Below are positions 23,010 to 41,835 of a stretch of DNA of 64,000 nt, in pieces. Positions within the stretch are counted from its first letter, which is position 1. Each line of letters opens with the position of its first letter. The notes beneath the pieces were generated by a model that saw nothing but the letters and a program-made list of their open reading frames with translations, had not been told where the DNA came from and did no database searches. The stretch is from Cohaesibacter intestini (GTDB lineage Bacteria > Pseudomonadota > Alphaproteobacteria > Rhizobiales > Cohaesibacteraceae), in the NCBI RefSeq assembly GCF_003324485.1, contig NZ_QODK01000005.1, forward strand, positions 186,001-250,000, given 5' to 3'. The position numbers were made by a program, and so were the translations under genes.

Positions 23010-24664
<1,655 letters not shown>

Positions 24665-24675
24665 GGTCACGTTCC

Positions 24676-26736: not shown

Positions 26737-28377
26737 TCATATCTTGCGCACCGAAATGCCGAGGATCTTGATCCGATAGGCGATCTGGCGTGGTGTCATG
26801 TCGAGCAAGCGTGCGGCCTTGGCCTGCACCCAGCCAGCCTCTTCCAAAGCGGCAATCACCCGCTCACGCTCATCGAGTTCTTCGTCATGCCAGGCCTTGG
26901 CTGGTGTGGTGGAGGGCTCGGCAGCATGCGAGGCCGTTTTGAGGATCGGCGGCAGGGGTTGAGACGGCACCCCGACCAGAGCCTTTTCCGGCAAGCCGGT
27001 CAGCGATACCGTTTCCCGGTCGATGATACCGGTTGGGCTCATCACGCTGGCCCGCTCAAGACAATTTTCCAGCTCCCGCACATTGCCCGGCCATGTATGC
27101 CGCATCAGTAGACGGATGGCACTATCCTTCAGCGTCAGCGGACGGCCTTGCTGGCTGCCGATCTTGGCGATCAGAAAACGCGCCAGATCGGGAATGTCAT
27201 CCATTCGATCCTGCAGCGAGGGCATATTGATCGCCATCACATTCAGCCGGTAATAGAGATCTTCGCGGAAGTCGCCATTTTCAATTGAGGCTTCCAGATC
27301 CTTGTTGGTTGCCGCGATGATCCGCACATCGACCTTGATGGTTTTGTTGCCGCCCACCCGTTCAAACTCACCTTCCTGCAACACCCGCAGCAGCTTCGAT
27401 TGAAAGGCCGGCGTGATCTCGCCAATTTCATCAAGAAACAGGGTGCCCCCATCCGCCTCCTCAAACCGTCCCTTGCGCATCGAGGTCGCACCGGTAAAGG
27501 CCCCTTTCTCGTGGCCAAACAATTCGGATTCGAGCAGATTGTCTGGTAAGGCTGCGCAATTGAGCTTGAGGATTGGCTCACGCGCCCGCGGCGAATTATA
27601 GTGGATGGCATTGGCAATCAGCTCCTTGCCCGTGCCGCTTTCCCCGCGGATCAGCACCGTGGTGTTCCATTTGGCCACCAGCCGAACCTGATCAAACACC
27701 ATCCGCATGGCTTCGGTCTCACCCACAACATTCTCAAAACCATGCTGCCGTTTGACCCGGCGACGCAGACTGTCCCGCTCGGCCCGCAATTCATTCTGTT
27801 CCGCCTGCACAGCGCTAGACAGCTGCAACACGCGCCCGATGAGGGAAGCGATCATCTGCACCAGTTTGGCATTGTCTTCCAAAAAGCGATCGCCATTGTT
27901 TGGTTGCACCGCGAGCACGCCCACGGCCACATCGCCACCAGTGAAAATCGGTGCACCAATGAAGGGGAGATCCGGGTCATACATGCCCAGACGATCGAGA
28001 AAGCGCGGCTCGTCCGCAATCCGGCGCACAAGGATCAGTTTTTTCTCGCTCAGAATCGATCCGACAATGCCTTCGCCGGGTTGGTAACGCACATTCTTGG
28101 TATAGATCGAATGGTCCTGATGCATGTCGGTGATCTTAAGATCTCCGCTTGTCTCATCGACCAAACAGATCATGCCATAGTGAAGGCGTCCTTCCTCATG
28201 CAACAGCTTCAAAACCTCTTGCGAGGTTTCCTCAAGATTGAGGGATTGGCCAAGCAACTGGCTGACCTGATACAGGGTGTCCAGCTCCTGACGGTAAAAG
28301 GAGCAATAAACAGGATGAGGGCAAACGCCCTCCGTCCTGTTGGGCGGGCTTGGTCTAGAAGATGGATCGGCTCTCAT
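26737..28377 (-). CDS. nifA: Nif-specific sigma-54 activator NifA
   Basis: Master activator of nif promoters. Domains: GAF about 35-180; AAA+ with Walker A GESGTGKE (245-252), the sigma-54 loop GAFTGA (292-297) and Walker B GTLFLDE (311-317); a linker 455-500; Fis-type HTH 517-542 ([22 protein letters not shown]). Cysteines in the AAA domain are only C274 and C439. The CxxxxC linker motif of oxygen-sensitive alphaproteobacterial NifA is absent. ATG at 28377 gives 546 residues; the start is not firm because the Shine-Dalgarno is weak. It lies 23 bases downstream of the NifL-like gene. Confidence 0.95.
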
Positions 28378-28400: not shown

Positions 28401-29279
28401 TCAACAAGCAGGCATTGTGATGCAGAGGAAGCAGCCGGAGCTGCCGTTGCTTCTGATCTCCATCTCCCCATGGAGTTCGGTTAAAATCTGATGGGCAATG
28501 GCCAACCCCATGCCCGAGCGATGCTTGGTCCCACGCCAAGCGGTAAAGAAGGGTTCGAACACTTTCGCACGCAGGGATTTTTCTATGCCAGGGCCACTGT
28601 CATGAATGCTAATCTCGATCATTCCATCTTGCGCGGTTGTCGAGCGAATGCTGACATCCCGCCCCTTTGCCCCCTCCTGTCCCACGGCGATAATTGCATT
28701 GGACAGCACGATACGAAGCAGGATCCTGAGGCCGATTTCGTCGCCAAAGGTCATCGGCAAATCGGATTTGGCCCGCCAGTCGACAACAATCCCGTGATAG
28801 GCAAGATCATCGGCCATGATGACCAGACAATCGCGAATGGCTTCATTCACATTGACCGGCCCATGCACCACATGCTTCTTGTCCGGCTCCGAGAGCCTGA
28901 GGGTCTCAATCGCTGCGTGGCCGGACTCCAGCGCTTCATCCAGCGCATATTCCATCGGCGTGCAATGATGCTCCCGATTCTGGTCCTGGTCCTGCAAATG
29001 ACAGCGATTGAGATTGTTCGACATCGCCTGCACAACATTCAGCGGTTTTTGCAACAGATAGAGCGCCCCATCGATCATCTCGCGGGTGCGATACTCCATT
29101 TCCGTCTCCGCCATGCGGGCCCGGATGGCATGCAGCCGGGCCTTCTCATATTGCTGCTTCTGAAAGTCGATCAACTGACAGTGGCTCGCGCATTCCATCG
29201 AAGGCCCCAAAGCAGGGCCAGAGGAAGGAATCGCGGAATGGACGGGCCCCGACATTGGCTTGATAGATAGGTCTGACAT
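28401..29279 (-). CDS. nifL: NifL-like GHKL anti-activator lacking PAS domains
   Basis: 292-residue protein upstream of nifA and apparently co-transcribed with it. The C-terminal GHKL ATP-binding domain is clear: N-box N194 (IVLSNAI), G1 HDSGPGI (226-232), F-box FEPFFTAW and G2 GMGLAIAHQI (256-265). The helix before it carries LLQKPLNVVQA (75-85), like NifL. At the phospho-acceptor position of histidine kinases it has Tyr74 instead of His. Classical NifL is about 500 residues with two N-terminal PAS domains, one binding FAD; here there are only about 60 residues before the helix. C30, C34, C93, H94, H104, H105 and C106 could bind metal or react with oxygen. The 300 bases upstream contain no missing PAS fragment. 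Confidence 0.75.
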   Translation of the reverse strand: MSDLSIKPMSGPVHSAIPSSGPALGPSMECASHCQLIDFQKQQYEKARLHAIRARMAETEMEYRTREMIDGALYLLQKPLNVVQAMSNNLNRCHLQDQDQNREHHCTPMEYALDEALESGHAAIETLRLSEPDKKHVVHGPVNVNEAIRDCLVIMADDLAYHGIVVDWRAKSDLPMTFGDEIGLRILLRIVLSNAIIAVGQEGAKGRDVSIRSTTAQDGMIEISIHDSGPGIEKSLRAKVFEPFFTAWRGTKHRSGMGLAIAHQILTELHGEMEIRSNGSSGCFLCITMPAC

Positions 29280-29376
29280 GGCTATGCAGCTTCTCTTTGA
29301 TCATTCACCAGAAAAGCAATGCAAAATACGTGCCGAAGAAGATTCCTTGAATTTCCTAGATATTTTTACGTCCAAA

Positions 29377-29392
29377 TGTCACCTTTGCTACA
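29377..29392. promoter_or_regulatory. NifA upstream activator sequence for rnf
   Basis: TGTCACCTTTGCTACA fits TGT-N10-ACA. It lies 122 bases upstream of the rnfA sigma-54 promoter and about 98 bases upstream of the divergent nifL-like start. No -24/-12 element was found on the nifL side. Confidence 0.82.
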
Positions 29393-29513: not shown

Positions 29514-29529
29514 TGGCACGGTTAATGCA
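29514..29529 (+). promoter_or_regulatory. Sigma-54 promoter of rnfABCDGEH
   Basis: TGGCACGGTTAATGCA has an ideal -24 half and a -12 half with A in place of the first T. It lies 50 bases before the rnfA ATG. Confidence 0.87.
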
Positions 29530-29578: not shown

Positions 29579-30160
29579 ATGGAAAATTTGTTGCTCATTC
29601 TGCTGGAAACCGCACTGGTCAACAATGTTGTACTGGTCAAGTTCCTTGGGCTTTGTCCCTTCCTCGGGGTGTCGAACAAATTGTCGTCGGCCATCGGCAT
29701 GGGCTTTGCCACCACCTTCGTGCTGACCATCGCGGCGACCGCCAGCTGGACAATCGAACGCATGGTTCTCCAGCCCTTCGATCTTGGCTATCTGCGCATC
29801 CTGACGCTCATTCTGGTGATTGCCTCTGTGGTGCAGTTTACCGAACTGGCGATCAAGAAGCTGTCGCCCTTTCTGCATCAGGGACTGGGCATCTTCCTAC
29901 CTCTGATCACCACCAACTGTGCGGTGCTCGGCGTCGCCCTGCTCACCATTCAGGAAGACCATTCCTTTCTCGAAAGCCTTCTGTTCGGCTTTGGCGCGGC
30001 GATGGGCTTCACCTTGGTGCTTGTCCTGTTTGCGGGTCTGCGCGAGCGCCTGAAATTCGCCGACGTGCCGACCATTTTCGCCGGCACGCCAATTGCCTTT
30101 CTGACCGCCGGTTTCCTCAGCCTGTCCTTCATGGGCTTTGCCGGGCTTGTCTCTCACTAA
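29579..30160 (+). CDS. rnfA: Rnf complex membrane subunit RnfA
   Basis: 193-residue integral membrane protein with about six transmembrane helices. The conserved cysteine segments [14 protein letters not shown] and [10 protein letters not shown] hold the Fe-S site between RnfA and RnfE. Rnf uses NADH and the ion gradient to reduce ferredoxin for nitrogenase. The Shine-Dalgarno is weak. First gene of a NifA-type sigma-54 operon. Confidence 0.97.
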
Positions 30161-39135: not shown

Positions 39136-40899
39136 TTATTGACTGGCAATATAGATGGTCTGGATCAGGCAGATCAGCAGCAGCAAAGCCGAGATGGCTT
39201 TCCAAGCCTGCTCCGGCAGCCTGTCAAACAACGGCCTCTTTGATTGGGATTGATAGCGAAGGCTGGGGGTCCGCATGGCTGCCTCAAACTCAGACAAGGC
39301 GTCAAACCGATGCGCCGGAGACGGAGCGACCGCACGCCGCAATGCATCATCGAGCCAATCGGCGATGGCTCGCTTGTCACTGTGGGCGCGTTTGTATCTC
39401 AGACGCTTGAGGTCGGAGGCCTTGCGCATCTGCGAAACCTGAATGCCGTAAGGCAACGCGCCAGTCAAAAGTTCATAGGCGATGACACCTAGGGAAAACT
39501 GATCCGATTGCCAGCTGATCGCGTCATGAATGTAATATTCCGGTGCGGTATATTGCACCGTACCCATGATCTCGGCTTCGCAGGCATCAGGGCCTGCTTC
39601 CTGCACACCGGCCACATAGACCGATCCGAAATCAATGATGGTCACCCCGAGATCCGGCGTGATGATGATATTTTCTGGCCGCAGATCCTGATGCAGCATT
39701 TCCCGCCGATGCAAGGCACGCAACCCCTTGATGATCTGCTCAAGGATTTCCCGGCACATCTCAATGCTGCGATCGGGATTGTCATGCATCCATTGGCGAA
39801 GGGTCTGTCCGGCCACATAATCGGTCAGAATATACAGGTGCGAGCGTTGTCCATGGGCCTTGGGTGCGGACATCAGATAGTCACTATCCAGTCGTCTTGC
39901 GACCCATTCCTCAATCATGAAACGGCGCATGGCCCGCTCGTCGGCAAGAACTTCGCTGGCCGGTATCTTGAAAGCCACTTTCTGCCCATCCGGCAGAGCA
40001 GCCAGAAAAATGTGTGAGCGGTGATTGGCATGCAGCTCCCGAAGGAGCATGATGCCGTCAATCACATCTCCTGCCTTTGGGGCAACCGGGAAGGGCTTGA
40101 GATCCCCGTCAGGCGAAAAGACCAACGCGTCATCATCAGGCACGCGATCAATCAGCAAGATTTGCAGAGTGGCATTGTCATCACAGCCCCGCGCCATCGC
40201 CGCCTCGATGATCTGCCCGGCAGCCCGGTCAAGATCGTCAGACGTCGCGATGGCGTCAATAACCAGATCCTTGTCCCAGAATTCGTGCGCCCCATCGGTG
40301 CTCAGAATAAAGACGTCGCCTTGCGATAGCCGCTCCTGCCGATAATCGATCTCGACCGCACTGTCGACGCCAAGGGCACGGGACAAGACCGTCTGGCCAT
40401 CAGCCGTTACGCTGCGATGCGCCCGCGTCAGGGGTTCCAGCGCACTGCCGGAAAGACGCCAGATTCGGCTGTCACCAACCGTGAACAAGTGGGCCGACGG
40501 CCCCTTGAAGACAGCCGCGGCCAGAGTGCAGACATAACCATGGTCCGGATCGCTGATACCCTTGAAGCAACTTTGCGCATGCAGCCAGCTGTTGGTCGCG
40601 CTGATAACACGAGAAATGGAGTTTTTGACCGACCAGGCCTCCGGCGTCGCATAATAATCGCTCATCAGGGATTTGATGGCCGTGTGCGCCGCGGTCCGGC
40701 CATGATCCGAGCTGGAGATTCCGTCGGCAATCGCAATCAGAATACCCTTCGAAACCAAGGCCGAACCTTCGGGCAAGCTGGCGCCGTAAAAATCGTCATT
40801 GCGTGCCTTGGGACCAGTCGCACTCGCCTGACCAAGGGAGACCATGGCCTTTGCCTTATCAAACAGGTTTGGTGCACTGGATTTCAACAAAGCAAACAT
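39136..40899 (-). CDS. PP2C phosphatase-Ser/Thr kinase fusion with C-terminal membrane anchor
   Basis: 587 residues. The N-terminal PP2C domain (about 20-255) has metal-binding DD35-36, DG59-60, GDSR (142-145), TDG (201-203) and DDN (240-242). The Hanks-type kinase domain (about 280-545) has the ATP lysine K311 (VAFK), HQDLRPEN (403-410, with Q replacing R of HRD) and DFG (423-425). One transmembrane helix lies at 566-585. Opposing activities in one chain suggest a switch on a membrane target. It lies between cynS and the nitrite channel gene; similar fusions occur beside nitrite/nitrate genes in other proteobacteria. The start is uncertain: ATG at 40845 is an alternative. Confidence 0.9.
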   Translation of the reverse strand: MFALLKSSAPNLFDKAKAMVSLGQASATGPKARNDDFYGASLPEGSALVSKGILIAIADGISSSDHGRTAAHTAIKSLMSDYYATPEAWSVKNSISRVISATNSWLHAQSCFKGISDPDHGYVCTLAAAVFKGPSAHLFTVGDSRIWRLSGSALEPLTRAHRSVTADGQTVLSRALGVDSAVEIDYRQERLSQGDVFILSTDGAHEFWDKDLVIDAIATSDDLDRAAGQIIEAAMARGCDDNATLQILLIDRVPDDDALVFSPDGDLKPFPVAPKAGDVIDGIMLLRELHANHRSHIFLAALPDGQKVAFKIPASEVLADERAMRRFMIEEWVARRLDSDYLMSAPKAHGQRSHLYILTDYVAGQTLRQWMHDNPDRSIEMCREILEQIIKGLRALHRREMLHQDLRPENIIITPDLGVTIIDFGSVYVAGVQEAGPDACEAEIMGTVQYTAPEYYIHDAISWQSDQFSLGVIAYELLTGALPYGIQVSQMRKASDLKRLRYKRAHSDKRAIADWLDDALRRAVAPSPAHRFDALSEFEAAMRTPSLRYQSQSKRPLFDRLPEQAWKAISALLLLICLIQTIYIASQ

Positions 40900-40998: not shown

Positions 40999-41835
40999 TC
41001 ACTCAGCCGGTTCAGCAACCGTGCCGACTGGACGGCGCGATGGCGAGGTGCGGAAATGAGTCGCGTAGATCATGCCGCCCACGAAGGTCAGACCACCAAC
41101 GAGGTTGCCGACAATGACCGGAATTTCGTTGTAGGCGAGATACTCGAACCAACCGAAATTGCCGCCCAGCATGATGCCTGATGGGAACAGGAACATGTTG
41201 ACGATGGAATGCTCGAAGCCGAGATAGAAGAAGACAAGGATCGGCATCCACATGGCCATGATCTTGCCCGACACAGTGTTGGACATCATCGCAGCAACCA
41301 CGCCGGTGGACACCATCCAGTTGCACATCACCGCCCGAATGAAGACCGTCAGGAAGCCAGCAGCACCCGCTGCCGCATATCCCACCGTACGGGTCTCACC
41401 GATCACTCCGATTTTTTGCCCAACCGCATTCGGCTCTTGCGAGAAACCCATGGTGAAGATGATCGCCATGAAGATGGCTGTGGTCATCGCACCGGCAAAG
41501 TTGCCGATAAAGACCAGTCCCCAGTTGCGCAAGACGCCGCCCCATGTCACGCCAGACCGTTTGGCAAGAAGCGCCAGAGGGGCAAGCGTGAAGACACCGG
41601 TCAGAAGGTCAAAGCCCAGCAGATAGAGCATGCAGAAGCCGACCGGGAACAACAAAGACGCAACAAGGAAGTTGCCGGTATTCACCGCAATGGTCACTGC
41701 AAAAGCCGCAGCCAGCGCCAGAATGGCACCCGCCATATAGGCCCTGATCAGCGTATCCTTGGTGGACATGAAGACTTTTGCTTCCCCAGCTTCAATCATC
41801 TGGACCGCAAATTCAGAGGGTTTCACATATGCCAT
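40999..41835 (-). CDS. Formate/nitrite transporter (FocA/NirC family)
   Basis: 278-residue pentameric channel protein with about six transmembrane helices. The central-gate histidine is H209 in GFEHSIVNM, at the same number as in FocA. The VKPSEFAVQMIEAGE N-terminus and LLTGVFTL are typical. AGGAG precedes ATG at 41835. Next to nirA and cynS, nitrite import is the likely role. Confidence 0.92.
   Translation of the reverse strand: MAYVKPSEFAVQMIEAGEAKVFMSTKDTLIRAYMAGAILALAAAFAVTIAVNTGNFLVASLLFPVGFCMLYLLGFDLLTGVFTLAPLALLAKRSGVTWGGVLRNWGLVFIGNFAGAMTTAIFMAIIFTMGFSQEPNAVGQKIGVIGETRTVGYAAAGAAGFLTVFIRAVMCNWMVSTGVVAAMMSNTVSGKIMAMWMPILVFFYLGFEHSIVNMFLFPSGIMLGGNFGWFEYLAYNEIPVIVGNLVGGLTFVGGMIYATHFRTSPSRRPVGTVAEPAE

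Follow-up and report, generated by a model that had tools for sequence, protein, structure and literature searches.

A NifL descendant without PAS domains is encoded beside nifA in Cohaesibacter

The NifL-NifA pair serves as a model for the merging of oxygen, nitrogen and carbon signals. Two oxygen sensors are textbook features of this system, namely the FAD-binding PAS1 domain of NifL and a four-cysteine motif in NifA. Published work reports that the contact between the two proteins runs through the GHKL and DHp regions of NifL (PMC12998174), and that the GHKL domain binds ADP and probably provides the GlnK site (PMC8219145). A NifL variant without PAS1, the 143-519 fragment with five linker residues deleted, is described as keeping its nitrogen response while showing no oxygen-responsive inhibition of NifA, and "locked-on" forms of Azotobacter vinelandii NifL are also known (PMC3466315); the variant lacks PAS1 only, not both PAS domains. 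In A. vinelandii, nifL adjoins nifA and a divergent rnf operon (PMC6490700), the same arrangement as in Cohaesibacter.

As for Alphaproteobacteria, one account, in its passage on the subject, gives NifL as absent (PMC4999443), another states that most members of the class lack it (PMC12727197), a third describes the alphaproteobacterial proteins as little studied (PMC9866876), and a fourth reports NifL in this class together with an rnf-nifLA neighbourhood (PMC6490700). Section 6 of this last source makes no mention of PAS loss, and its main text does not contain the word Cohaesibacter. No natural PAS-less NifL appeared in the titles and abstracts among the matches listed in our literature search, outside which subscription papers and supplements lay, and the literature searched yielded no experiment on Cohaesibacter NifL; the single paper there in which both names occur does not deal with the NifL of this genus in the passages concerned. 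A NifL that has naturally lost its sensor half and is under selection shows what the essential core of the protein is, and a minimal antiactivator of this kind may aid the engineering of nitrogen regulation.

The window, a stretch of 64,000 nucleotides from Cohaesibacter intestini (contig NZ_QODK01000005.1, positions 186,001 to 250,000), contains a nifL-like gene (P0001) of 292 codons that starts with ATG and is supported by its open reading frame, profile matches, phylogeny and promoter. A preliminary description, made from the letters alone, had placed a 292-residue frame at 28401-29279; the frame is real and lies on the minus strand (29279..28401), the plus-strand frame at these positions being interrupted by stops. 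The TIGR02938 NifL model (494 positions) matches residues 39-289 over its positions 250-492 with 180 bits, a score below the curated cut-off of 242.45 and compared with 79.9 bits for the next-best family, while profile positions 1-249, the PAS half, are unmatched. Similarly, a Pfam search up to an E-value of 1 returned no PAS family, and all three families listed were of the HATPase_c type. In the PDB, the best match falls on chain A of the NifL-NifA complex from A. vinelandii (9qq6; E 1.3e-34; Foldseek E 2.4e-16), and other histidine kinases match more weakly.

The GHKL nucleotide-binding domain (residues 139-292; 28404..28865, minus strand) is complete, as had been proposed beforehand, matching PF02518 with an E-value of 5.7e-17. 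An alignment of 19 C-terminal halves shows no variation at N194, D227, G229, G231, F241, G256 and G258; we assign these residues to the nucleotide boxes (N, G1, F, G2), whose residues are intact. An AF2 monomer model built from 19 sequences (mean pLDDT 80.3) predicts a continuous helix over residues 28-97 that combines the signalling helix and the first DHp helix (28989..29198, minus strand), followed by a loop, a second helix at residues 108-129 and the GHKL fold; a first model from 13 sequences had the same layout at a mean pLDDT of 63.8. DHp-like helices and a GHKL domain are common to this protein and to A. vinelandii NifL (9qq6; TIGR02938), whereas PAS1, with its FAD, and PAS2 are absent from the Cohaesibacter protein, which also carries extra conserved cysteines. 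Profile match, Pfam search, tree and structure matches agree that the protein is a NifL descendant without PAS1 and PAS2, and the earlier expectation of a PAS-less NifL is borne out. Since both domains are missing, oxygen sensing by PAS1-bound FAD is lost, again as had been anticipated.

Tyr74 (29058..29060, minus strand) occupies the phospho-acceptor position, so that the histidine of an ordinary histidine kinase is missing, and A. vinelandii NifL (9qq6) has at the aligned position a histidine that is presumably His305. The preliminary description was right that a tyrosine stands here, but the residue does not set the protein apart. Alignment A2, which includes 10 of the 12 Cohaesibacter rows and leaves aside the full-length proteins L029 (a near-copy of L028) and L057 (divergent), has tyrosine in 11 of 11 PAS-less rows, and the eight full-length NifLs show four tyrosines, three phenylalanines and one histidine. 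Tyr74 as a special feature is thereby ruled out, and the residue is ordinary for NifL.

Phylogeny places the protein inside the NifL family. In a tree of 29 C-terminal halves, the 23 NifL rows separate from six kinases (support 100/99; the six were taken from the 24 non-NifL matches of the phylum sample), which rules out an ordinary histidine kinase. The 13 PAS-less proteins form a single clade (100/99) nested among full-length NifLs and sister to three full-length NifLs of the order (G078, G103 and G114; joint support 100/100). These three resemble the Cohaesibacter proteins in having tyrosine at the histidine position and a partner NifA without the cysteine motif, and differ in matching the NifL model over positions 1-490/492 and in having open frames of 565-600 aa. 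The tree leaves out L022-L026, five matches in four other genomes with long frames (589-1964 aa); branches are long for L056, L057, L073 and L074, and bootstrap values are 89-91 at the deeper forks among the NifLs. The simplest history suggested by these sequences would be a single loss of the PAS domains inside the full-length NifLs. In a published nitrogenase tree, Cohaesibacter clusters with Gammaproteobacteria (PMC8399215), a placement consistent with a transferred nif cluster.

The PAS-less NifL occurs in 12 of 18 genomes (G000-G017) of Cohaesibacter, a genus of marine bacteria, and NifA occurs in exactly the same 12; as judged by position, its match shares contig and strand with NifL in every case and lies just downstream. 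Of the six genomes without either gene, one is 64% complete and another has 8% contamination. Among 397 genomes of the order, 16 matches reached E <= 1e-40, comprising the 12 Cohaesibacter proteins, one from the Hyphomicrobiales metagenome-assembled genome (MAG) BM303 (L009/L032, genome G033) and three full-length NifLs. The only NifL match among 385 genomes of the class was the window's own, and 398 genomes of the phylum gave seven matches over the cut-off, all full length, together with 24 further matches besides the window's own that span most of the profile in frames of 782-1909 aa. These samples overlap, and other PAS-less NifLs may exist. The five loci returned by a contig-level scan were those of two Cohaesibacter species (C. 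marisflavi and C. haloalkalitolerans), that of BM303, one in a MAG whose NifL is full length and one in Cohnella, where the match is weak. BM303 belongs to another family; its protein is PAS-less, is encoded beside nifA and falls in the same clade as the Cohaesibacter proteins.

A short form of this kind could, in a lone genome, stem from misannotation, a frameshift or a decaying gene. Such an origin is extremely improbable here: the short form is shared by thirteen genomes, a promoter pattern lies beside the start in 12 of them, and dN/dS is well below 1, at 0.03-0.16 in eight pairs (the two most distant of these have high dS values, 1.7 and 2.3). The gene is under purifying selection. A sequencing error or a hidden PAS exon is ruled out by the shared short form and the promoter position, the PAS loss being common to all 13 genomes. 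The PAS-less NifL is thus a real, selected variant, present in every sampled Cohaesibacter genome that has NifA.

Gene order and promoter patterns leave no place for the missing domains. Directly downstream of nifL lies nifA (26737..28377, minus strand; profile match), whose likely ATG at 28377 is 23 nt past the nifL stop, in agreement with the claim that nifL stands just upstream of nifA; the overlap of the two genes in the list of open reading frames is an artefact of a TTG start choice. Upstream, the divergent rnf operon begins with rnfA (29579..30160, plus strand; called by model match). A pattern scan, with consensus sequences for the promoter and the NifA box from PMC4999443, located a σ54-type -24/-12 promoter pattern of nifLA at 29321..29335 (minus strand), a second one for the rnf operon at 29514..29528 (plus strand) and, between them, a NifA upstream activator pattern TGT-N10-ACA at 29377..29392. 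The σ54-type pattern starts 56-59 nt before the nifL ATG in 12 of 12 Cohaesibacter genomes, so the interval from promoter to start codon is too short to encode a PAS domain. Together with an open frame of only 299 aa around the gene in its own genome, this upholds the earlier view that the locus has no room for two PAS domains. The BM303 contig starts 22 nt before its PAS-less nifL ATG, too short to show a promoter.

The promoter patterns across the 12 genomes are degenerate, and the shuffled control covers the window, where the σ54-type pattern occurs 13 times against 3.1 expected, a count reached in none of 100 shuffles. The NifA-box pattern is common by chance and is not above expectation in the window (12 against 9.1), and its weight therefore rests on its constant position, 113-125 nt before the nifL ATG in 12 of 12 genomes. 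The aligned Cohaesibacter sequences between nifL and rnfA (12 loci) also conserve a TTGCTACAA-like stretch, about 30 bases beyond the NifA box as seen from nifL.

We consider it probable that the PAS-less NifL, which descends from NifL through the loss of both PAS domains, functions as an antiactivator of NifA. The observations in its support are its ancestry, the single PAS loss, the intact nucleotide boxes, purifying selection, the nifA operon with its promoter and a NifA of the NifL-dependent type. By analogy with studied NifLs, from which NifA inhibition, dimer formation and the response to nucleotide and PII are extrapolated, a dimer would use its GHKL domain and DHp-like helices to keep NifA in an inactive form. 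The inhibitory state would be the one with ADP bound to the GHKL domain and/or with the domain contacted by unmodified PII/GlnK; NifA would be released under nitrogen limitation, when it binds 2-oxoglutarate. The genome carries two PII genes. Antiactivation and a nitrogen/ADP response are likely on this comparison, and the preliminary proposal that the protein senses nitrogen/ADP only is a sound default. By analogy with the "locked-on" forms, the PAS-less NifL could also act as a constant inhibitor.

The partner NifA bears on how oxygen might be perceived. The four-cysteine oxygen motif C-x11-C-x(15-24)-C-x4-C is missing from all 16 NifAs encoded beside NifL (12 from Cohaesibacter, one from BM303 and three next to full-length NifLs), including that of the window, and is present in 21 of 21 other NifAs examined in the order, out of a list with seven more matches, of which one scores above the cut-off and six below it. 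The partner is thus of the NifL-dependent type. Because neither PAS1-FAD nor the NifA motif is present, both textbook oxygen sensors are absent from the pair, which raises the question of how Cohaesibacter keeps nif off in oxygen. Near the N-terminus of NifA (28303-28323, minus strand), two cysteines in the context CPHPVYC occur in 15 of the 16 aligned NifAs beside NifL, the sixteenth row being incomplete.

Oxygen may be sensed elsewhere, through a pathway of the FixL-FixK type or a stand-alone PAS protein, with NifL sensing nitrogen only. This explanation is plausible, although we lean slightly against it. Candidates are encoded in the genome. On contig C7, a PAS kinase resembling FixL lies about 2.5 kb from a regulator of the Crp/Fnr type (both named by inspection), and other contigs encode three PAS proteins that are short, with frames of 180-188 aa; these last, however, are only 27-30% identical to the NifL PAS domains and unlinked to nif. 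A search of the own genome for a split-off NifL PAS domain gave as its best match a 969-aa frame of GGDEF type (by inspection) with 28% identity. A scan of the nifL promoter region in the 12 genomes, extending 330 nt upstream of the gene, found no FNR/FixK box with fewer than two mismatches, a result that counts against such a pathway at this promoter and in favour of sensing through the NifL cysteines. Two boxes with two mismatches (L019, L020) lie at different places, the remaining genomes have three mismatches or no box, and the counts are near the shuffled expectation. As for the short stand-alone PAS proteins L102, L103 and L105 (contigs C3, C1 and C8), they appear Aer-type PAS-like by inspection.

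The cysteines of NifL offer another possible route. The preliminary description had proposed a Cys/His cluster; its cysteines C30, C34, C93 and C106 are present and conserved in the genus, whereas H94, H104 and H105 vary in the Cohaesibacter alignment, which rules out such a cluster; the feature is better described as two cysteine pairs. The first pair lies in an ECAxxCQL motif (C30 to C34 codons, 29178..29192, minus strand), with both cysteines in 12 of 12 Cohaesibacter proteins and six of eight positions invariant, against two of 28 in the preceding N-tail. The second lies in the hairpin loop from C93 to C106 (28962..29003, minus strand), which contains exactly two cysteines in all 12 proteins despite lengths of 11-18 residues and nine distinct sequences. 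Cysteine is the sole residue type occurring twice in all 12 loops, C106 is the sole invariant column of 15, and the first loop cysteine stands two columns later than C93 in 10 of the 12. Cys codons alternate between TGC and TGT while the residue is kept, C151 is also retained in 12 of 12, and each C-terminal half contains 8-11 cysteines, compared with 1-6 in 17 comparison proteins. Among the full-length NifLs of the order, L027 and L028 differ in having neither the ECAxxC motif nor hairpin-loop cysteines. The conserved pairs look constrained.

These features, along with a NifA that lacks its own oxygen motif, would fit a tentative reading in which cysteines take over from the flavin. The two chains of a parallel dimer might bring their C30/C34 pairs together at the top and/or their loop pairs together at the base, and an Fe-S cluster, zinc or reversible disulfides there would maintain oxygen or redox sensing. 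The ligands are conserved in the 12 Cohaesibacter proteins, which come from related genomes (three subclades in the tree) and are counted unweighted, and their meeting in space is judged on the monomer model only. In that model one helix of about 70 residues has C34 close to one end and C93 close to the other, 59 residues and, if the helix is straight, 88.5 Å apart, which rules out a four-cysteine site within the monomer and leaves no single site per chain; the Cys/His metal site within one chain suggested earlier is not supported. CxxxC is not known as a canonical motif for zinc or Fe-S binding, which also weighs against the proposal. Furthermore, the PAS-less BM303 protein lacks C30, C34, the loop cysteines and C151, so PAS loss did not need these cysteines, and most simply they would have been gained after it. 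In this respect BM303 provides a natural comparison, PAS-less and devoid of the four cysteines. A redox input through the cysteines is a possibility, if an unproven one, and it adds to the antiactivator explanation rather than excluding it. The stronger version, in which Cohaesibacter NifL swapped its flavin-PAS sensor for Fe-S, metal or disulfide cysteine sites at the ends of the antiactivator dimer, as a minimal redox switch evolved after PAS loss, is unlikely; if true, the swap would have given nitrogen fixation a redox switch that is both minimal and new.

The remainder of the window contains nifH, nifD, nifK, nifE, nifN, nifB, nifS and nifV over their model cut-offs and a nifX-like gene slightly below its own. 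Among the genes next to nifB, positions 23405-24670 (minus strand) encode a flavodiiron-type protein, a candidate oxygen- or NO-consuming enzyme whose flavorubredoxin model matches are below the cut-offs. A single open reading frame at 39136-40899 (minus strand) matches both PP2C phosphatase and Ser/Thr kinase models, likewise below their cut-offs, and is adjoined by a formate/nitrite transporter-like gene at 40999-41835.
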